DNA from: Bradyrhizobium arachidis
Lineage (GTDB): Bacteria > Pseudomonadota > Alphaproteobacteria > Rhizobiales > Xanthobacteraceae
Length of the DNA stretch: 64,000 nt
Assembly (NCBI RefSeq): GCF_024758505.1
Contig: NZ_CP077970.1
Span: 8,060,001 to 8,124,000, forward strand
Reading direction: 5' to 3'
Shown: positions 48,049 through 54,761 of the stretch, in pieces
How the letters are laid out: every line of letters starts with the position of its first letter
Position numbering within the stretch: position 1 is the first letter of the stretch
Made by a program: the position numbers and the translations under genes
The notes under the pieces: generated by a model
What the model saw: the letters and a program-made list of their open reading frames with translations, nothing else
Databases searched by the model: none
Told to the model about the DNA's origin: nothing

Positions 48049-49839
48049 ATGGAAAGACGCTTGGCCGCCATCGTTTGCGCCGACGTCGCCGGCTATTCGC
48101 GCATGATGGGCGCGGACGAGGCCGGCACCCATGCCGCGTTCAAGGCCCATCGCACCGCGATCCACCCGATCATCCTCAATCATGGCGGCCGCGTCGTGAA
48201 GAACACCGGCGACGGCTTTTTGCTGGAGTTTCCCAGCATCGTCGGCGCCACCGAGGCGGCGATCGCGATCCAGACCATGATGGCCGAGCGCAATCATCAA
48301 TTGCCAGCCGACCGTGCCATGCAGTTCCGGCTCGGCATCCACATGGGCGACGTGATCTCCGACGAGGACGAGGTGTTCGGCGACGACGTCAACATCGCCG
48401 TCCGCCTCGAATCGGTGTCGGCGCCCGGCGGCATCGCGATTTCGGCCAAAGCCCATGGCGAGGCCGCCAAGCATCTCAGCGTGCCCCTGACCGACGCCGG
48501 CACGCACCGGTTCAAGAACATCAACCAGCCGGTCGGCGTCTGGACCTGGACGCCGGAAGGCGCCGCGCCACGGCGAGCTGACGCAGTCGTCACGCTTGGA
48601 CAGCAATACCGCACCGCCATCGTCGGGGTGCTGCCCTTTGCCAATCTCTCCGGCGAGCACGACGAGTATTTTTCCGACGGCCTTACCGAGGATCTGATCC
48701 ACGCGCTGTCGCTGCAATCCTTCTATCGTGTGCTCAGCCGCAACTCGACGTTCCCGTTCAAGGGCAAGAACGTCTCGACCCGCCTGATCGCGCGCGAGAT
48801 CGACGCGACTTACCTGATCGAGGGCTCGGTGCGCCGTGCCGGGACCAAGGTCCGGGTCACCGCCGAGTTGATCGCGCCGGAGACCGGCGAGCAGATCTGG
48901 ACCGGACGGTACGACCGCGACATCGGCGATCTCTTCGCGATGCAGGACGAGATCACGACCAATTTGTCGGCAGCGCTGGCGACCGAGATTTTCCGCGCGG
49001 AGGCTTCCGCACCGGCGCGCCTGACCACCGACGTGACCGCCTGGGACCGCTTCCTCAAAGGTCTTTCGCACTACTACCGGCAGACCAAGGAGGATTTCGA
49101 CACCTCCATCGCCCTGTTCAGAGAGGCGATCGCGCTCGATCCAAAACTGTCGATCGCGCATGCCTATCTCGTCACCATCCAGATCCAGAGCATCCAGTTC
49201 GGATGGGTCAAGGGCACGCGCGAATTGTGGGCCGAGGCGCGGCATCTCGCGGAGACCAGCGTCCGGCTCGACCCACGCTCGTCGTTCGCGTTTTCGTGCC
49301 TGTCGTGGGTGGACGTGATCGACGGCCGTTACGAGGCCGGAATGGATGCCGCCAATCGCGCGGTTGCGCTCAATCCCTACGACATGGGCGCGCGCGGCGT
49401 GCTCGGGATCTGCCACTTCATCATCGGCGAGCATCGCAAGGCGATCGAGCTGTTCTCGATGGCCGTGCAGCGCGGCAACAGCGATCCGCGCTACCAATGG
49501 GCGACGCTGAATGCATTCAGCCATTATCTGCTGGGGCAATATGACGCGACGCTGTCATGGGCGCGCGAGCAGCTCTACCTCAATCCGAACCATTTGCAGG
49601 CGCTGGCGATCCGCGCCGCGGCACTGGCGCAATTGGGGCGGGCTGAGGAGGCCACTGAAGCGACCGGGGTGCTGCTGAGCAACTACCCCACCCTGACCGT
49701 CGATCGGCATCTCAAGAACTTCCATTGGAAACAGGCTGACGACCTCGCGCACTACCGCGAAGGCTTGCTCAAGGCCGGCGTCCCGCTCGGCAAATTGACC
49801 CTGGTCCAGACGGACGTGAAGCGGGCGGCCGATTCCTGA
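48049..49839 (+). CDS. Class III adenylate cyclase with TolB-like and TPR domains
   Basis: The 596-residue protein begins with a class III cyclase domain: metal aspartates D12 in CADVAGYSRMM and D55 in KNTGDGFLLEF, and VFGDDVNIAVRLE. Lys at 51 fits adenine selection. A TolB-N/FlgO-like domain follows (VGVLPFANLSGEHDEYFSDG to about residue 310), then tetratricopeptide repeats to the C-terminus (TSIALFREAIALDPKL, RYEAGMDAANRAVALNPYD). This fusion recurs in Rhizobiales. It would produce cAMP and dock partners through the repeats. GGAG lies about 13 bases before the ATG. Upstream is a 193-bp intergenic gap with no repeat. Confidence 0.87.
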   Translation: MERRLAAIVCADVAGYSRMMGADEAGTHAAFKAHRTAIHPIILNHGGRVVKNTGDGFLLEFPSIVGATEAAIAIQTMMAERNHQLPADRAMQFRLGIHMGDVISDEDEVFGDDVNIAVRLESVSAPGGIAISAKAHGEAAKHLSVPLTDAGTHRFKNINQPVGVWTWTPEGAAPRRADAVVTLGQQYRTAIVGVLPFANLSGEHDEYFSDGLTEDLIHALSLQSFYRVLSRNSTFPFKGKNVSTRLIAREIDATYLIEGSVRRAGTKVRVTAELIAPETGEQIWTGRYDRDIGDLFAMQDEITTNLSAALATEIFRAEASAPARLTTDVTAWDRFLKGLSHYYRQTKEDFDTSIALFREAIALDPKLSIAHAYLVTIQIQSIQFGWVKGTRELWAEARHLAETSVRLDPRSSFAFSCLSWVDVIDGRYEAGMDAANRAVALNPYDMGARGVLGICHFIIGEHRKAIELFSMAVQRGNSDPRYQWATLNAFSHYLLGQYDATLSWAREQLYLNPNHLQALAIRAAALAQLGRAEEATEATGVLLSNYPTLTVDRHLKNFHWKQADDLAHYREGLLKAGVPLGKLTLVQTDVKRAADS

Positions 49840-50028
49840 AGCGCCGGGCCGCGCAACGCGCGCCTGCCCCCATCCGGCACAGTTGACGCGGCTGTGAAGT
49901 AGGCAACACTTTGCTGCACGCTGAAGTAGTATAGTCTCCCAGACTGCGCTTTCGGTTTGTTAGGGATTTCTCCGGTTCTATCCGCGCGTCTCGTTTTCTC
50001 GATTCGTCGTTTTTCAGGATCCAGGGCC

Positions 50029-52824
50029 ATGCCAGACCCCCACATTCCCCTCAACCCGCCGATCGAAGTCTCCAAGGACAATCCCTGCCCATTCCTGCGC
50101 GGCCTCGTCGGCGAGGGTTTTGTCAAGGCCGGCACCGTGCCACTCGGCACGCTTGCGAAAACGATTGGGGATGCGAGCGGCAAGACGGGATTGCCCAAGG
50201 TCAAGGCGCGCGTCGAGGTCCGTGGCGTCGCGCTCATCGCCAACGGCTTCCGTCACATCCTCAAGAGCGCATGGCAAGGCGCGCAACTCAACGACCTACG
50301 CAACGGCCCGCTGGACAAGCATGGCGCCGGTTCGCGCATCCTCAGCGTCGAGGGGGTCGTGAATGAGGACGAAATCGCGCGGCTGGCGACCTTCGGTCGC
50401 GACTATCCGGATCCGTTCGGCGGCGGCACCGAGCGCGGCCTCAACGCGCACGAGATCAAGACCTTCATGCGCGAGAACCTCGAGCGCGCCGGCGACGACG
50501 CGCGCTGGTACTACCCGCTGCTCATGAAAAACGAATGGCCGGTCCTGCTCGACATCATGGGCAAGGGTGAAGGCGACAACCGCTATCTCAGCGTGGCCGA
50601 GGTCCGGACGCTGTTCACCGAGCGGAAGTTTCCGCCACGGATCGAACAGCGGATCATCACCCGGCCCGTGATCACGCGCCGGCAGCGGGTCCTGCGCTAT
50701 GTGGGCGCGGCTCTCGCCGCGCTGGTCGTGCTACTGCTTGCGAGCCTGCGTTTCCCCGACCAGTTCCAGCCCATGCTGCCGAAATTCGTCGGGCAGTTCA
50801 TCGCCCCGTCATTGCCGGCGCATGTCGAGGCGAAGGAGGCCTATTGGCTCGAGCAGAACTGGGCGCTGGAAGACCGGCACTGGTTCCATCACGTAAGCCA
50901 GGGCACCGCGACGTTCCCGGTGCCCTATTCCTGGTTCATGGCGCTGGAGCAGCCGCGCCTCTACTTCTTCGCGCGGCCGGGACTGCTGAGCGACAGCGCC
51001 CATCTCGAGCGCTTCGGCTTCATTCCGAGCCCGAGGACGATCAACGCCGACGAGACCACGCTGCGCCGCTTCGGCTATGCCAACGTCTATGAGACGACGC
51101 CGGCGGTCCCTGCGCGGCAGTGGAATCCTCCGGTCAAATGGGAGACCCCGGTCGACAATGTCGGCGGCCTTCCGGTCGGTTTTGCGCGCATGACCGGCGT
51201 GCGCGATCCGGCGACGGGCCGGCAGGAGGAAGACAAGATCGGCCTGACCTGCGCCGCCTGTCACACCGGCCAGATCCACTACAAGGGCGTCGACATCCGC
51301 TTCGACGGCGGCCCGGCCATGACCGATCTCAAGAAGCTCGAGATCACGACCGGCCTGTCCATCGCCTACACGCTTTACGTACCGGGCCGCTTCACGCGCT
51401 TTGCGGATCGCGTGCTCGGCGCCTCCGCAAGCGATGCCGACCGGGAGGCGCTGAAGCAGAAGCTCGGCGCCATCGGTTCGTTCCTGCTCAACTGGCAGAA
51501 GAACTACGACAAGACGATCGAGGGCAAGAAAACCTGGGACGGCAAGCAGCAGCAGGATACGGAAGAGGGATTTGGCCGTCTCGACGCGCTCAACCGGATC
51601 GGCAACCAGGTGTTCGCCCAGGACCTGACGCTCAGCGGCATCGAGGGATTTGAAAAGAACCTGCATGCCCAGGATGCGCCGGTCAGCTTCCCGCCGATCT
51701 GGACCGTGCCCTGGCTCAAATACGCGCAGTACGATGCCTCGATCGAGCAACCGCTGATCCGCAATGCCGGCGAGGCGCTCGGCGTGACCGCGCTGCTCAA
51801 CCTGTCCGATGCTTATCCCAACGGCACGATGTTCCGCACCTCGACCGACGTGAAGAATCTGCATTGGATCGAGGAGATGCTGCGGGGCTCCCCACCGAAG
51901 CCCAAGAAACAGCTCAGCGGACTGACGTCACCGAAATGGCCCTCGCAAATCTTCGGCGATGGCGCCTGGACGATCGACCCCGTGCGCGTCGAGCGCGGCC
52001 GGCAGCTCTATGCCGACATCTGCGTCGAATGCCATCTGGGCCCGGTCACCGATCGCGTGTTCGACGAGAAGTACAATGACAAGAGTGTGTGGGAGTCGAA
52101 ACGCTGGGAACGCATCGGCGACGAGGACATCCTGAACCCGGTCCAGAAGAGTGTGAAAGGCATGGGCACGGACTCCGCGCAGGCCTATGTGCTGGAGAAG
52201 CGAATGGTTCAGGCTCCGGGCTTCCTCGACATCGATCCGACGAAAAAGCTCTATGACTGGTGGAAATGCGACAACCTGCCGACGGCAACGTCGACCGAGA
52301 TGCCGTACTCGATCGGCCTGATGGCGCTCGTCGAGATCGTCGGCCGCAAGGCGATGAACGATGGCAAGGTCCCGCCGGACGAGCAGACGAAATGGTGGGG
52401 CGGCCGCAAGAACTGCCCCAATCCCGGTCCACAGCCGCCCGAGCCCGTCAAGGAGCCGCGCCCCTGGTACCGCGCACGCCCGCTGAACGGTGTGTGGGCC
52501 ACCGCACCGTATCTGCACAACGGCTCGGTGCCCTCGCTCTACTGGATGCTCAGCCCTGCGCGCGATCGGCCAAAATCGTTCTGCATGGGCAATCGCGACT
52601 ACGATCCGAAGCAGGTCGGCTTCGCGGTCGAGGATGGCGAGAGTTGCAAGACGGGCCAGACGCGGTTCTCGACCACGACGTGGAGCGGGACCGAGATCAA
52701 TGGCAACAGCAACGCCGGCCATTCGTTCGAAGGAACGCCGGGACCGAACAATCCGGGCGTCATCGGCCGCATGCTCAAGGAAGACGAGCGCTACGATCTG
52801 ATCGAATATCTGAAGACGCTATAG
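50029..52824 (+). CDS. Fusion of a family-2 haem-peroxidase-like domain with a di-haem cytochrome c peroxidase-like domain
   Basis: The 931-residue protein has three parts. Residues 1-210 contain PCP (19-21) as in chloroperoxidase/unspecific peroxygenase proximal cysteine motifs, EGVVNEDE at 108-115 at the spacing of the Glu-His-Asp region of these enzymes, and YLSVAEVRTLFTERKFP at 186-202. A transmembrane helix follows at about 222-240. The remainder is periplasmic and has two c-type haem motifs, CAACH (408-412) and CVECH (665-669), plus YLHNGSVPSLY (829-838) as in di-haem peroxidases and RoxA-like oxygenases. Each half is recognised by motif only; the fusion is read directly. Start at ATG 50029. 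Confidence 0.75.
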   Translation: MPDPHIPLNPPIEVSKDNPCPFLRGLVGEGFVKAGTVPLGTLAKTIGDASGKTGLPKVKARVEVRGVALIANGFRHILKSAWQGAQLNDLRNGPLDKHGAGSRILSVEGVVNEDEIARLATFGRDYPDPFGGGTERGLNAHEIKTFMRENLERAGDDARWYYPLLMKNEWPVLLDIMGKGEGDNRYLSVAEVRTLFTERKFPPRIEQRIITRPVITRRQRVLRYVGAALAALVVLLLASLRFPDQFQPMLPKFVGQFIAPSLPAHVEAKEAYWLEQNWALEDRHWFHHVSQGTATFPVPYSWFMALEQPRLYFFARPGLLSDSAHLERFGFIPSPRTINADETTLRRFGYANVYETTPAVPARQWNPPVKWETPVDNVGGLPVGFARMTGVRDPATGRQEEDKIGLTCAACHTGQIHYKGVDIRFDGGPAMTDLKKLEITTGLSIAYTLYVPGRFTRFADRVLGASASDADREALKQKLGAIGSFLLNWQKNYDKTIEGKKTWDGKQQQDTEEGFGRLDALNRIGNQVFAQDLTLSGIEGFEKNLHAQDAPVSFPPIWTVPWLKYAQYDASIEQPLIRNAGEALGVTALLNLSDAYPNGTMFRTSTDVKNLHWIEEMLRGSPPKPKKQLSGLTSPKWPSQIFGDGAWTIDPVRVERGRQLYADICVECHLGPVTDRVFDEKYNDKSVWESKRWERIGDEDILNPVQKSVKGMGTDSAQAYVLEKRMVQAPGFLDIDPTKKLYDWWKCDNLPTATSTEMPYSIGLMALVEIVGRKAMNDGKVPPDEQTKWWGGRKNCPNPGPQPPEPVKEPRPWYRARPLNGVWATAPYLHNGSVPSLYWMLSPARDRPKSFCMGNRDYDPKQVGFAVEDGESCKTGQTRFSTTTWSGTEINGNSNAGHSFEGTPGPNNPGVIGRMLKEDERYDLIEYLKTL

Positions 52825-52930: not shown

Positions 52931-53656
52931 TCAGTCGGCCAAGGGGCGCCGCACCGAAGCGACCCATTTGCCCCTCATGCCCGCACCGTCGTGCGATTTA
53001 CGCATGGCCTTCCGCAACCCGATGATCTGGAATAAACGCAGCAGATCGCGCAAATCGTCTTCATCGCAATAGTGATGAGGCAGGAAGTCATCGTCCATCT
53101 CATCGAGATCAGGACGTTGGTCGACAAAGGTGCTGGGTTCGATTTCGGCGATCTGCCCGGCGGCGACCCGCTCGCGCAACAGCTGATAATCGAGACCGTC
53201 GGTACAGGGAAAATCGACCAGCAACAATCCGCCCGGCTTGAGTACGCGCCTGACCTGGCCAAGCGTCCGTATGATCTCTTCCCGTTTCTGATGATGGATC
53301 GTCGATGTCGACAAGACAGCATCGAATGTTCGGTCCGGCCAATGCACCGTGGTCATGTCGGAAACCTGTCCCTCAAAACTGATCCGACTGTCCGCGCACG
53401 CTTCCTGGGTCAACCGAATGCCGCTCGGCGAGATGTCGATTCCCGCCATGCGAAACCCGCAACCGCCCAGATGGATCACGTGCCGTCCAACCCCGCAGCC
53501 AAGATCCAGCACGAAACCTCCTGCTGCAATGGTTGCCGCCCATTCCATCACGGCTGGATCAGGGGCGGCGTAGCTCCCGTAGCGGGGATGTCCGTTGCCG
53601 TGTCGCCATATCAGTTCCCAGCCTACCCGTTCGTCTGATTTAGAAGCATTCGGCAT
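52931..53656 (-). CDS. SAM-dependent methyltransferase
   Basis: The 241-residue protein has the class I methyltransferase motifs: VLDLGCGVGRHVIHL as motif I (residues about 49-63), FRMAGIDISPSGI as motif II and TFDAVLSTSTIHH as motif IV, then RRVLKPGGLLLVDFP. The acceptor is unknown. The start at ATG 53654-53656 is supported by upstream stops. It lies 16 bases after the tandem-cyclase gene on the same strand, so the two probably form an operon. Confidence 0.8.
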   Translation of the reverse strand: MPNASKSDERVGWELIWRHGNGHPRYGSYAAPDPAVMEWAATIAAGGFVLDLGCGVGRHVIHLGGCGFRMAGIDISPSGIRLTQEACADSRISFEGQVSDMTTVHWPDRTFDAVLSTSTIHHQKREEIIRTLGQVRRVLKPGGLLLVDFPCTDGLDYQLLRERVAAGQIAEIEPSTFVDQRPDLDEMDDDFLPHHYCDEDDLRDLLRLFQIIGLRKAMRKSHDGAGMRGKWVASVRRPLAD

Positions 53657-53672
53657 GATTATCGGTCTTCGC

Positions 53673-54761
53673 CTAATCGATGTCTGTCGATCCCGCTTGC
53701 CTTGCGGGGGAAACGCTAAATACTTGCATGGGGCGCGCGACGTTCTTGAGAGCGATTTCGCCCATGTCGACGAAACATGCATTGATCCAGTCACGGACCT
53801 GATCGTGAACCGCACGGGTGATCGAAATGCCTCCGGCCGCAGTCATGCTTTCGATACGCGCTGCGATGAACACGTTGTCGCCCGTCAAGTCTTCACCTGT
53901 CGTTATGACATCTCCAACGTGGACTCCTATACGCAGCCGCATGCCTTTGTTGTCGCCAGCCGCGGCGGCTACCCGCTCGGTTTCCGCCTGAATGGCCATG
54001 GCGCAACCCACCGCCTGAACCGCAGTGGGAAATTCTGCCAGGAAGGCGTCGCCATTGACCCTGAACAGCCGGCCATCATGCTGTGCGATACTGGGCTCGA
54101 TGATTTCGTAGCGAAGCGCGCTGAGCCGCTCCAGCGCGACCGCCTCGTCAAAGCTGGTATAGCCGTCCACGTCCGCGATGAGGATTGCGGCGAGGCGGCG
54201 CGTCAATCTGGCGGTCTTTGGCGCTACTGATTGAACGTCGCTGTTCATCCGAACGCGCCAGATTCGCATCGGATACGAGATATTCTTCAGAGATCGCGAA
54301 CCCAAATCTTCAAGGATGACATTCGCCTTGCCGCGTATTTGTCGGTACGCGTCATCGGAAACACACACGCCTCCCGGTTCGGCGAGTGCCTCAAGGCGCG
54401 CAGCGATATTGACGGCATCGCCAAAGAGGTCGCCTCCCCTGACCATCACATCACCAACGTGCACGCCAATGCGGAAGTTGACGTGACGCTCGAGTGACAG
54501 ACCGGAATTGGCCTCGGCCAGCGCTGCCTGCACCTCCACCGCGCATTGAATAGCTTCAACAGCACTGCCGAATTCTGCCAGCACGCTGTCCCCGGCGGTA
54601 TTGGCGATGCGGCCTCGATGAACCGCAATCAGGCGGTCGAGGATGGCCCGCCGATGCGTCAAGCTCCGGAGGGTCCCGACCTCGTCGGCCCCCATCAATC
54701 GGCTATATCCTTCGACGTCGCCAGCGAAAATCGCGACCAGCCTGCGCTCTGTATCAGTCAC
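53673..54761 (-). CDS. Protein with two tandem class III nucleotide cyclase domains
   Basis: The 362-residue protein has two cyclase catalytic domains in one chain: domain one with AGDVEGYSRLM (D15) and NTAGDSVLAEF (D58), domain two with IADVDGYTSFD and RVNGDAFLAEF, each followed by GD-A/N-V-N/F-IAAR. Bacterial class III cyclases normally dimerise; a fused pair recalls the C1/C2 layout of eukaryotic enzymes. The adenine-selecting Lys before the second Asp is replaced (N in the first domain, R in the second), so substrate and activity are open. It precedes the methyltransferase gene by 16 bases. Start ATG at 54759-54761. Confidence 0.8.
   Translation of the reverse strand: MTDTERRLVAIFAGDVEGYSRLMGADEVGTLRSLTHRRAILDRLIAVHRGRIANTAGDSVLAEFGSAVEAIQCAVEVQAALAEANSGLSLERHVNFRIGVHVGDVMVRGGDLFGDAVNIAARLEALAEPGGVCVSDDAYRQIRGKANVILEDLGSRSLKNISYPMRIWRVRMNSDVQSVAPKTARLTRRLAAILIADVDGYTSFDEAVALERLSALRYEIIEPSIAQHDGRLFRVNGDAFLAEFPTAVQAVGCAMAIQAETERVAAAAGDNKGMRLRIGVHVGDVITTGEDLTGDNVFIAARIESMTAAGGISITRAVHDQVRDWINACFVDMGEIALKNVARPMQVFSVSPARQAGSTDID

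Follow-up and report, generated by a model that had tools for sequence, protein, structure and literature searches.

A clade VI-type bacterial peroxygenase domain, predicted from its fold, is joined to a membrane-anchored di-haem domain in Bradyrhizobium arachidis

Introduction

Bacterial unspecific peroxygenases (BUPOs) have been found by fold search (Lopez-Tavera et al., Biochemistry, 30 June 2026; PMC13394420). In the available text of that report, clade VI makes up nearly 70% of BUPO sequences and occurs almost only in Bradyrhizobium, and many clade VI members are bimodular, with a transmembrane helix followed by a diheme cytochrome c peroxidase (CCP) domain, an architecture "never reported before." The same text describes three characterised BUPOs, of clades I, III and V, activity on 2,2'-azino-bis(3-ethylbenzothiazoline-6-sulfonic acid) (ABTS) for 10 of 13 candidates from six clades, with no indication of which belong to clade VI, and peroxide-driven oxidation by relatives (PMC13394420). 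Here we analyse a gene of Bradyrhizobium arachidis, a member of a genus known for root nodules, whose genome is a single contig of 9.43 Mb. The gene lies in a stretch of 64,000 nucleotides (contig NZ_CP077970.1, positions 8,060,001 to 8,124,000), hereafter the window.

An earlier reading of the window, the original prediction, had proposed that the product joins a haem-thiolate-peroxidase-like domain to a membrane helix and a di-haem domain as an undescribed trans-membrane redox design. The fusion design is in fact already known: in its available text, PMC13394420 reported the same architecture for the genus in June 2026, so that the finding is right but not first. Among the papers listed in literature searches, none was a further report of it, by title or start of abstract. 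Raw sequence alone thus independently confirms a bacterial haem-thiolate peroxygenase-like domain missed by family searches, and we add to the prior report the distribution of the domain in the genus, the site shared by its fused and single-domain forms, the separate di-haem genes and the purifying selection on both halves.

Results

We put a probability of roughly 0.8 on the gene being a two-module member of BUPO clade VI, made up of a cytoplasmic peroxygenase, a membrane anchor and a periplasmic di-haem c enzyme (Table 1). The part order, the predicted fold, the conservation of key residues, purifying selection and a fixed chromosomal site were all computed.

The gene runs from an ATG through 931 codons to a stop and specifies 931 amino acids. 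An in-frame TTG lies upstream at 49957; the ATG start is favoured, since 119 of the 121 homologue rows aligned retain M1 and the other two have gaps there. A homologue search gave 1417 matches, and all 120 listed cover 97-100% of the protein at 58-90% identity. Among the matches listed, the closest named protein is from B. guangdongense (83% identity) and the closest named locus is that of B. liaoningense SZCCT0420 (90% identity). The ratio of nonsynonymous to synonymous substitution rates (dN/dS) against eight chosen relatives was 0.21-0.38 for residues 1-210 and 0.19-0.33 for residues 266-931, values that show purifying selection on both halves; the linker and helix between them gave 0.17-0.70. 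In light of this selection and of homologues along the full length, the fused reading frame is not a product of chance. Among the best 80 of 391 loci, 79 carry Bradyrhizobium in their title. One fused locus comes from a record titled Frankia sp. RB7, yet its gene and flanks match Bradyrhizobium; the record is probably mislabelled or a mixed assembly.

For the N-terminal domain, modelling predicts the haem-thiolate peroxygenase/chloroperoxidase fold, as the original prediction had proposed. Its model (best of five; mean predicted local distance difference test score [pLDDT] 73.5, range 63.5-73.5; predicted template modelling score 0.72) matches fungal unspecific peroxygenases (UPOs) in Foldseek and VIA comparisons. 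Identity to the fungal short (family I) enzymes HspUPO (7o1r), DcaUPO (8iag) and MroUPO (5fuj/7zbp) in structural comparison is 11-18%, and a large Z gap separates the fungal UPO matches from unrelated rows. In a search of viral models, the same model matched two uncharacterised giant-virus proteins, A0A3G4ZVQ5 of Edafosvirus (E = 4.2e-4) and A0A5K0U776 of Yasminevirus (E = 2.5e-3), each with probability 1.00; these perhaps share a UPO-like fold.

Residue counts covered four groups: fused loci (85, the window's among them, with a few duplicate rows), single-domain loci (30), fused proteins (120) and single-domain proteins (110, after exclusion of 10 longer than 235 amino acids). C20, the central residue of the PCP motif on which the original prediction had relied, is present in every fused and single-domain locus, in 119 of the 120 fused proteins (one gap) and in all 110 single-domain proteins; it is also kept in 120 of 121 full-length alignment rows (one gap). 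Neither outcome that the original prediction had named as refuting it, a different fold of the N-terminal model or a C20 that orthologues do not conserve, was thus observed. K97, E169, W170 and P171 are invariant in all rows of all four groups, and R103 is found in every row except one of the single-domain proteins. From motif order and invariance, E169 is predicted to be the acid-base glutamate, and R103 and K97 are conserved candidates for its basic partner; some bacterial enzymes have lysine or arginine in place of the fungal histidine, as described in the available text of PMC13394420. The YLSVAEVRTLF segment, also named in the original prediction, proved to be conserved. EGVVNEDE, the other segment named there, is present but did not hold up as a family motif: among fused sequences, position 108 is glutamate in only 5 of the 85 loci and 9 of the 120 proteins, so rarely that the segment is no counterpart of a conserved EGD/EHD motif.

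The membrane helix was borne out as the single strong hydrophobic stretch of the protein. Residues 221-239 have a mean Kyte-Doolittle value of 2.19, the next best 19-residue stretch elsewhere reaches 1.01, and several arginines immediately precede the helix. Because haem c is attached in the periplasm, the di-haem half should lie outside and the N-terminal domain on the cytoplasmic side. Neither histidine nor cysteine, which could hold a cofactor, occurs in the helix, and we accordingly read the fusion as a tether. Electron passage between the halves, as the trans-membrane redox design would have it, is without support; a tether, or mere co-location of the two domains, would account for the fusion more simply.

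The C-terminal part is, by its sequence-family matches, a di-haem peroxidase of the RoxA-like/CCP group, and its CAACH, CVECH and HNGSVPSL motifs are where the original prediction had seen them. NF040606 (di-heme-cytochrome C peroxidase) spans residues 278-930 with 438.5 bits against a cut-off of 150, and the Pfam RoxA-like Cyt-c and Cytochrom_C families score over their cut-offs, with Cytochrome_CBB3 under its own. The sole solved relative found by sequence is RoxA (4b2n; residues 800-851, 30 bits). The NCBIfam models for RoxA, RoxB and RoxC gave 39-57 bits against cut-offs of 900-1000, scores so low that by this test the protein is not a rubber oxygenase.

Several results weigh against the two-module peroxygenase reading. 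The N-terminal model is of moderate quality, contains no haem and falls below pLDDT 50 at residues 92-100, and its Foldseek search gave no match at E = 0.001 or better (best, 8.4e-3). UPO/Peroxidase_2 was absent from all sequence-profile searches (Pfam, NCBIfam, and phmmer and hmmsearch against PDB). PF01328 (Peroxidase_2), the family 2 haem-peroxidase domain against which the original prediction had suggested checking the N-terminal 210 residues, had no match to them, none at E <= 10 for 35 members and none anywhere in the whole B. arachidis genome. Profile-profile comparison with fungal UPOs gave weak values, with P at 0.034 and 0.019 and an hhalign probability of 1.5-2.5% across 24-25 columns, although this weak alignment does pair C20 with the cysteine of the fungal enzymes; global mode in hhalign gave no sensible alignment. 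Residue 98 is leucine in 41, arginine in 26 and histidine in 18 of the 85 fused loci, so that if H98 were the acid-base partner, many fused proteins would lack it. Finally, the AlphaFold model of the di-haem half has a pLDDT of 46 and was not used for axial ligands. Matches of the N-terminal domain to glutamate racemase (E = 0.2) and FHBP_N (E = 0.0047) were judged to be chance.

Table 1. Features of the fusion gene and its upstream neighbour in the window
Feature	Residues	Window positions	Strand	Basis
Whole gene: BUPO domain, membrane helix, di-haem domain		50029..52824	+	reading frame, domain matches, homologues
BUPO clade VI type domain, predicted cytoplasmic	1-210	50029..50658	+	model, fold matches
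PCP motif	19-21	50083..50091	+	invariance; weak profile alignment
C20, predicted haem thiolate ligand	20	50086-50088	+	invariance; weak profile alignment onto fungal UPO Cys
KHGAGSR, candidate basic partner of acid-base pair	97-103	50317..50337	+	conservation; position inferred
EGVVNEDE, without conservation	108-115	50350..50373	+	residue counts
EWP; E169, predicted acid-base glutamate	169-171	50533..50541	+	invariance; motif order
YLSVAEVRTLF, conserved	186-196	50584..50616	+	homologue alignments
Single predicted membrane helix, arginines on N side (N-in, C-out)	221-239	50689..50745	+	hydrophobicity
Di-haem domain (NF040606 match 278-930)	266-931	50824..52821	+	Pfam, NCBIfam
CAACH, first haem c motif	408-412	51250..51264	+	motif
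CVECH, second haem c motif	665-669	52021..52035	+	motif
HNGSVPSL, inside RoxA-like cytochrome c match (814-851)	830-837	52516..52539	+	Pfam match
Upstream neighbour: nucleotide cyclase catalytic domain (PF00211) and tetratricopeptide (TPR) repeats		48049..49839	+	domain scan; conserved neighbour

A profile of the N-terminal domain matched 177 of 195 genomes of the genus, once per matching genome except for one with two matches (up to 15 candidates scored per genome); in the B. arachidis genome, with all 44 candidates scored, there was one match. In a family sample, 8 of 149 genomes matched, seven of the same genus and one of another. The latter match, in a frame of 311 codons, is weak and partial (E = 3.4e-4, positions 50-131) and may be chance or a distant relative. 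In a phylum sample with up to seven candidates scored per genome, 10 of 398 genomes matched at E <= 0.01, all of the same genus, and none of the other 211 genera did; other BUPO clades may escape this profile. This distribution agrees with the "almost exclusively in Bradyrhizobium species" of the available text of PMC13394420. A search with the N-terminal domain by itself returned 862 proteins at E <= 0.001, of which the best 120 are mostly of 200-225 residues, without Pfam domains, and unnamed or called "hypothetical protein."

Among the matches listed, 34 genomes carry the domain in a short frame of 212-273 codons; three further frames (404, 472 and 782 codons) were left unclassed. We compared 30 single-domain loci with 85 fused loci. 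A cyclase/TPR gene with the same orientation lies upstream in each of the fused loci and in 29 single-domain loci (the exception is a short locus), at a median distance between the two matches of 210 and 211 bases, respectively. An alpha/beta-hydrolase gene is present in 72 fused and all 30 single-domain loci. Of the 13 fused loci without it, seven are short, and the other six (L072, L073, L075, L077, L078 and L079) extend 2.7-6 kb further. Because these flanking genes are common to both, the two forms occupy the same site in most genomes seen. In the window, the fusion gene is separated from the alpha/beta hydrolase by a methyltransferase gene and a second nucleotide-cyclase gene (52931-54761, minus strand). 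The methyltransferase gene was found in none of 80 named fused loci, so the region looks like a lineage-specific insertion.

The trees do not decide between gain and loss of the di-haem module. In a tree of the domain (115 rows), the fused/single-domain label changes once, on a weak branch (74 in the Shimodaira-Hasegawa-like approximate likelihood-ratio test). In a tree of the neighbouring gene with eight outgroup rows, which did not form one side of a branch, one fused locus (L070) groups with the outgroup and another (L071) with single-domain rows, a placement that leans towards loss. Approximately unbiased tests reject neither one fused clade (P = 0.165) nor one single-domain clade (P = 0.316). 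Of the 30 single-domain loci, 24 leave over 30 bases before the next gene, and none of these showed a remnant of the C-terminal part behind the single-domain gene (best E, 4.1).

Each of the 34 single-domain genomes has, elsewhere, an NF040606 match that exceeds the cut-off; it is full-length in 33 and in two pieces on two contigs in the other. In 13 of the 18 genomes without a BUPO (the other five, all less than 90% complete, were left out), NF040606 was full-length in four, partial or weak in three and absent from six. Sixty fused genomes were picked from the listed N-domain matches, not at random. All have the fusion. In at least 17, an additional frame (563-775 codons) matches NF040606 over nearly its full length, and several have broken or partial extra matches among those listed. 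In a tree of the di-haem domain (56 rows), 18 of 20 separate loci from the first set form one clade, whose sister group is three separate genes from fused genomes (L138-L140); a starred branch divides the 32 fused domains sampled from the 24 separate ones. Long branches may meet in this tree, above all L118 and L141, and L136 was dropped by a motif filter. Simple capture of a separate di-haem gene is not favoured as the origin of the fusion, fused and separate domains being split by the starred branch.

Two observations were made on NF040606 genes outside the genus. In another genus, a 1202-codon frame (G249:C1:875906-879160) contains NF040606 pieces in two sets, resembling a tandem fusion of two di-haem enzymes. 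Four rhizobial plasmid loci (L201-L204) were opened among 53 records matched; in three plasmids, a protein of 443-451 amino acids of no known family lies directly upstream of the NF040606 gene, and that of L201 has a CVSCH motif. Catalase as a regular neighbour was rejected: it occurs in NGR234 only, the upstream proteins of the other three plasmids have no family match, and one of these, compared with the NGR234 catalase, is unlike it.

Discussion

We infer haem binding, topology, activity, substrates and the partnership of the two modules as follows. The N-terminal module would be a cytoplasmic haem-thiolate peroxygenase in which C20 binds haem b, and E169, with R103 or K97/H98 as its basic partner, would split hydrogen peroxide or an organic peroxide to form Compound I, which could oxidise a hydrophobic substrate close to the inner membrane. 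The single helix would anchor this module. The C-terminal module, of the NF040606 (RoxA-like/CCP) group, would be a di-haem c enzyme in the periplasm. It could act as a peroxide reductase or oxygenate a lipid-like substrate; the patatin-like genes near NF040606 genes in three of the four rhizobial plasmid loci opened may hint at a lipid oxygenase like PA2077/PA2078 (PMC4496055). Through the tether, two peroxide-handling enzymes would be kept on opposite faces of one membrane, with no need for an electron path. Our best guess is joint handling of peroxides, perhaps lipid peroxides; we rank simple peroxide handling at both faces as most likely, with lipid-peroxide chemistry as the more interesting rival.

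An unlikely version of that rival is an oxylipin-type two-step enzyme, for which fungal dioxygenase-P450 fusions provide the comparison: the di-haem part would make or use lipid hydroperoxides and the haem-thiolate part would convert them. The di-haem part matches the RoxA-like Cyt-c family, and PA2077/PA2078, of the fatty-acid di-haem peroxidases (FadCcp), are RoxA-like di-haem peroxidases that act as fatty-acid di-haem oxygenases, a likeness drawn from the available text of PMC4496055 and not from sequence. In three of the four plasmid loci, the NF040606 gene has a patatin-like gene no more than 2 kb away. That of L201 was recognised from its Pfam match (35.1 bits; cut-off, 27.7), that of L204 from 37-39% similarity to the protein of L201, and that of L203 from its annotation, the NCBIfam match being far under its cut-off; the L203 locus contains an annotated catalase as well (21.1 bits in Pfam, where the cut-off is 25). 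However, the fourth plasmid locus has no patatin-like gene, none is among the four window neighbours scanned, and the two halves are predicted to be on opposite sides of the membrane.

The N-terminal domain might instead have the UPO fold but no catalytic role, sensing haem or peroxide and thereby controlling the di-haem enzyme in the periplasm; the cyclase/TPR gene would then belong to the same stress-signalling locus. The leucine at position 98 of many fused loci, against histidine in 28 of 30 single-domain loci (leucine and arginine once each), looks as if catalytic demand were relaxed upon fusion, and the cyclase gene precedes every fused locus. We nevertheless find a sensor distinctly improbable, given that C20, K97, R103 and E169 are invariant in those same fused loci and that the dN/dS of the domain is low. 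The cyclase gene need not be functionally tied to the fusion, since it also stands about 200 bases upstream of the single-domain form. That the domain is no haem-thiolate protein at all, its PCP motif and helical-bundle fold being coincidental in a small helical domain, is most improbable in view of the Z gap, the strictly invariant PCP and E-W-P glutamate in the expected order, and the activity shown experimentally for other BUPO clades, which the same kind of fold search had brought to light (PMC13394420, available text).

Under the two-module peroxygenase reading, the genomic pattern suggests that BUPO and NF040606 enzyme go together, fused or apart, a suggestion of modest weight because the single-domain genomes are close kin and the association is confounded by descent. 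A stronger form is tentative and, we think, rather unlikely: that the two are obligate partners whose chemistry, on peroxides or lipid peroxides, takes place at both faces of the inner membrane, and that they come as one chain in most Bradyrhizobium species and as two genes in the clade with a single-domain BUPO at the same site. The pattern in the genus (usually a single copy at a shared site, either fused or accompanied by a separate di-haem gene) offers a natural comparison set for function.

Among known systems, rubber oxygenase RoxA matches the protein significantly only over residues 800-851. The NF040606 protein of L201 (Rhizobium etli plasmid pRetIE4803d) is 41% identical over 771 alignment columns and shares both CXXCH motifs and HNGSVP, but it starts near its membrane helix and has no BUPO domain. 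Fungal short UPOs are extracellular, whereas the N-terminal domain described here is predicted to be cytoplasmic, is fused to a helix and a di-haem domain, and lacks their conserved EHD/EGD motif. With respect to the bimodular BUPOs of clade VI, no essential difference was found, as judged from the available description in PMC13394420 and not from sequence. The protein and clade VI come from the same genus and have the same part order, with the diheme CCP domain as IPR047758, and they have in common the PCP motif, the absence of a sequence-family match and the absence of a conserved fungal-type EHD/EGD motif (PMC13394420).
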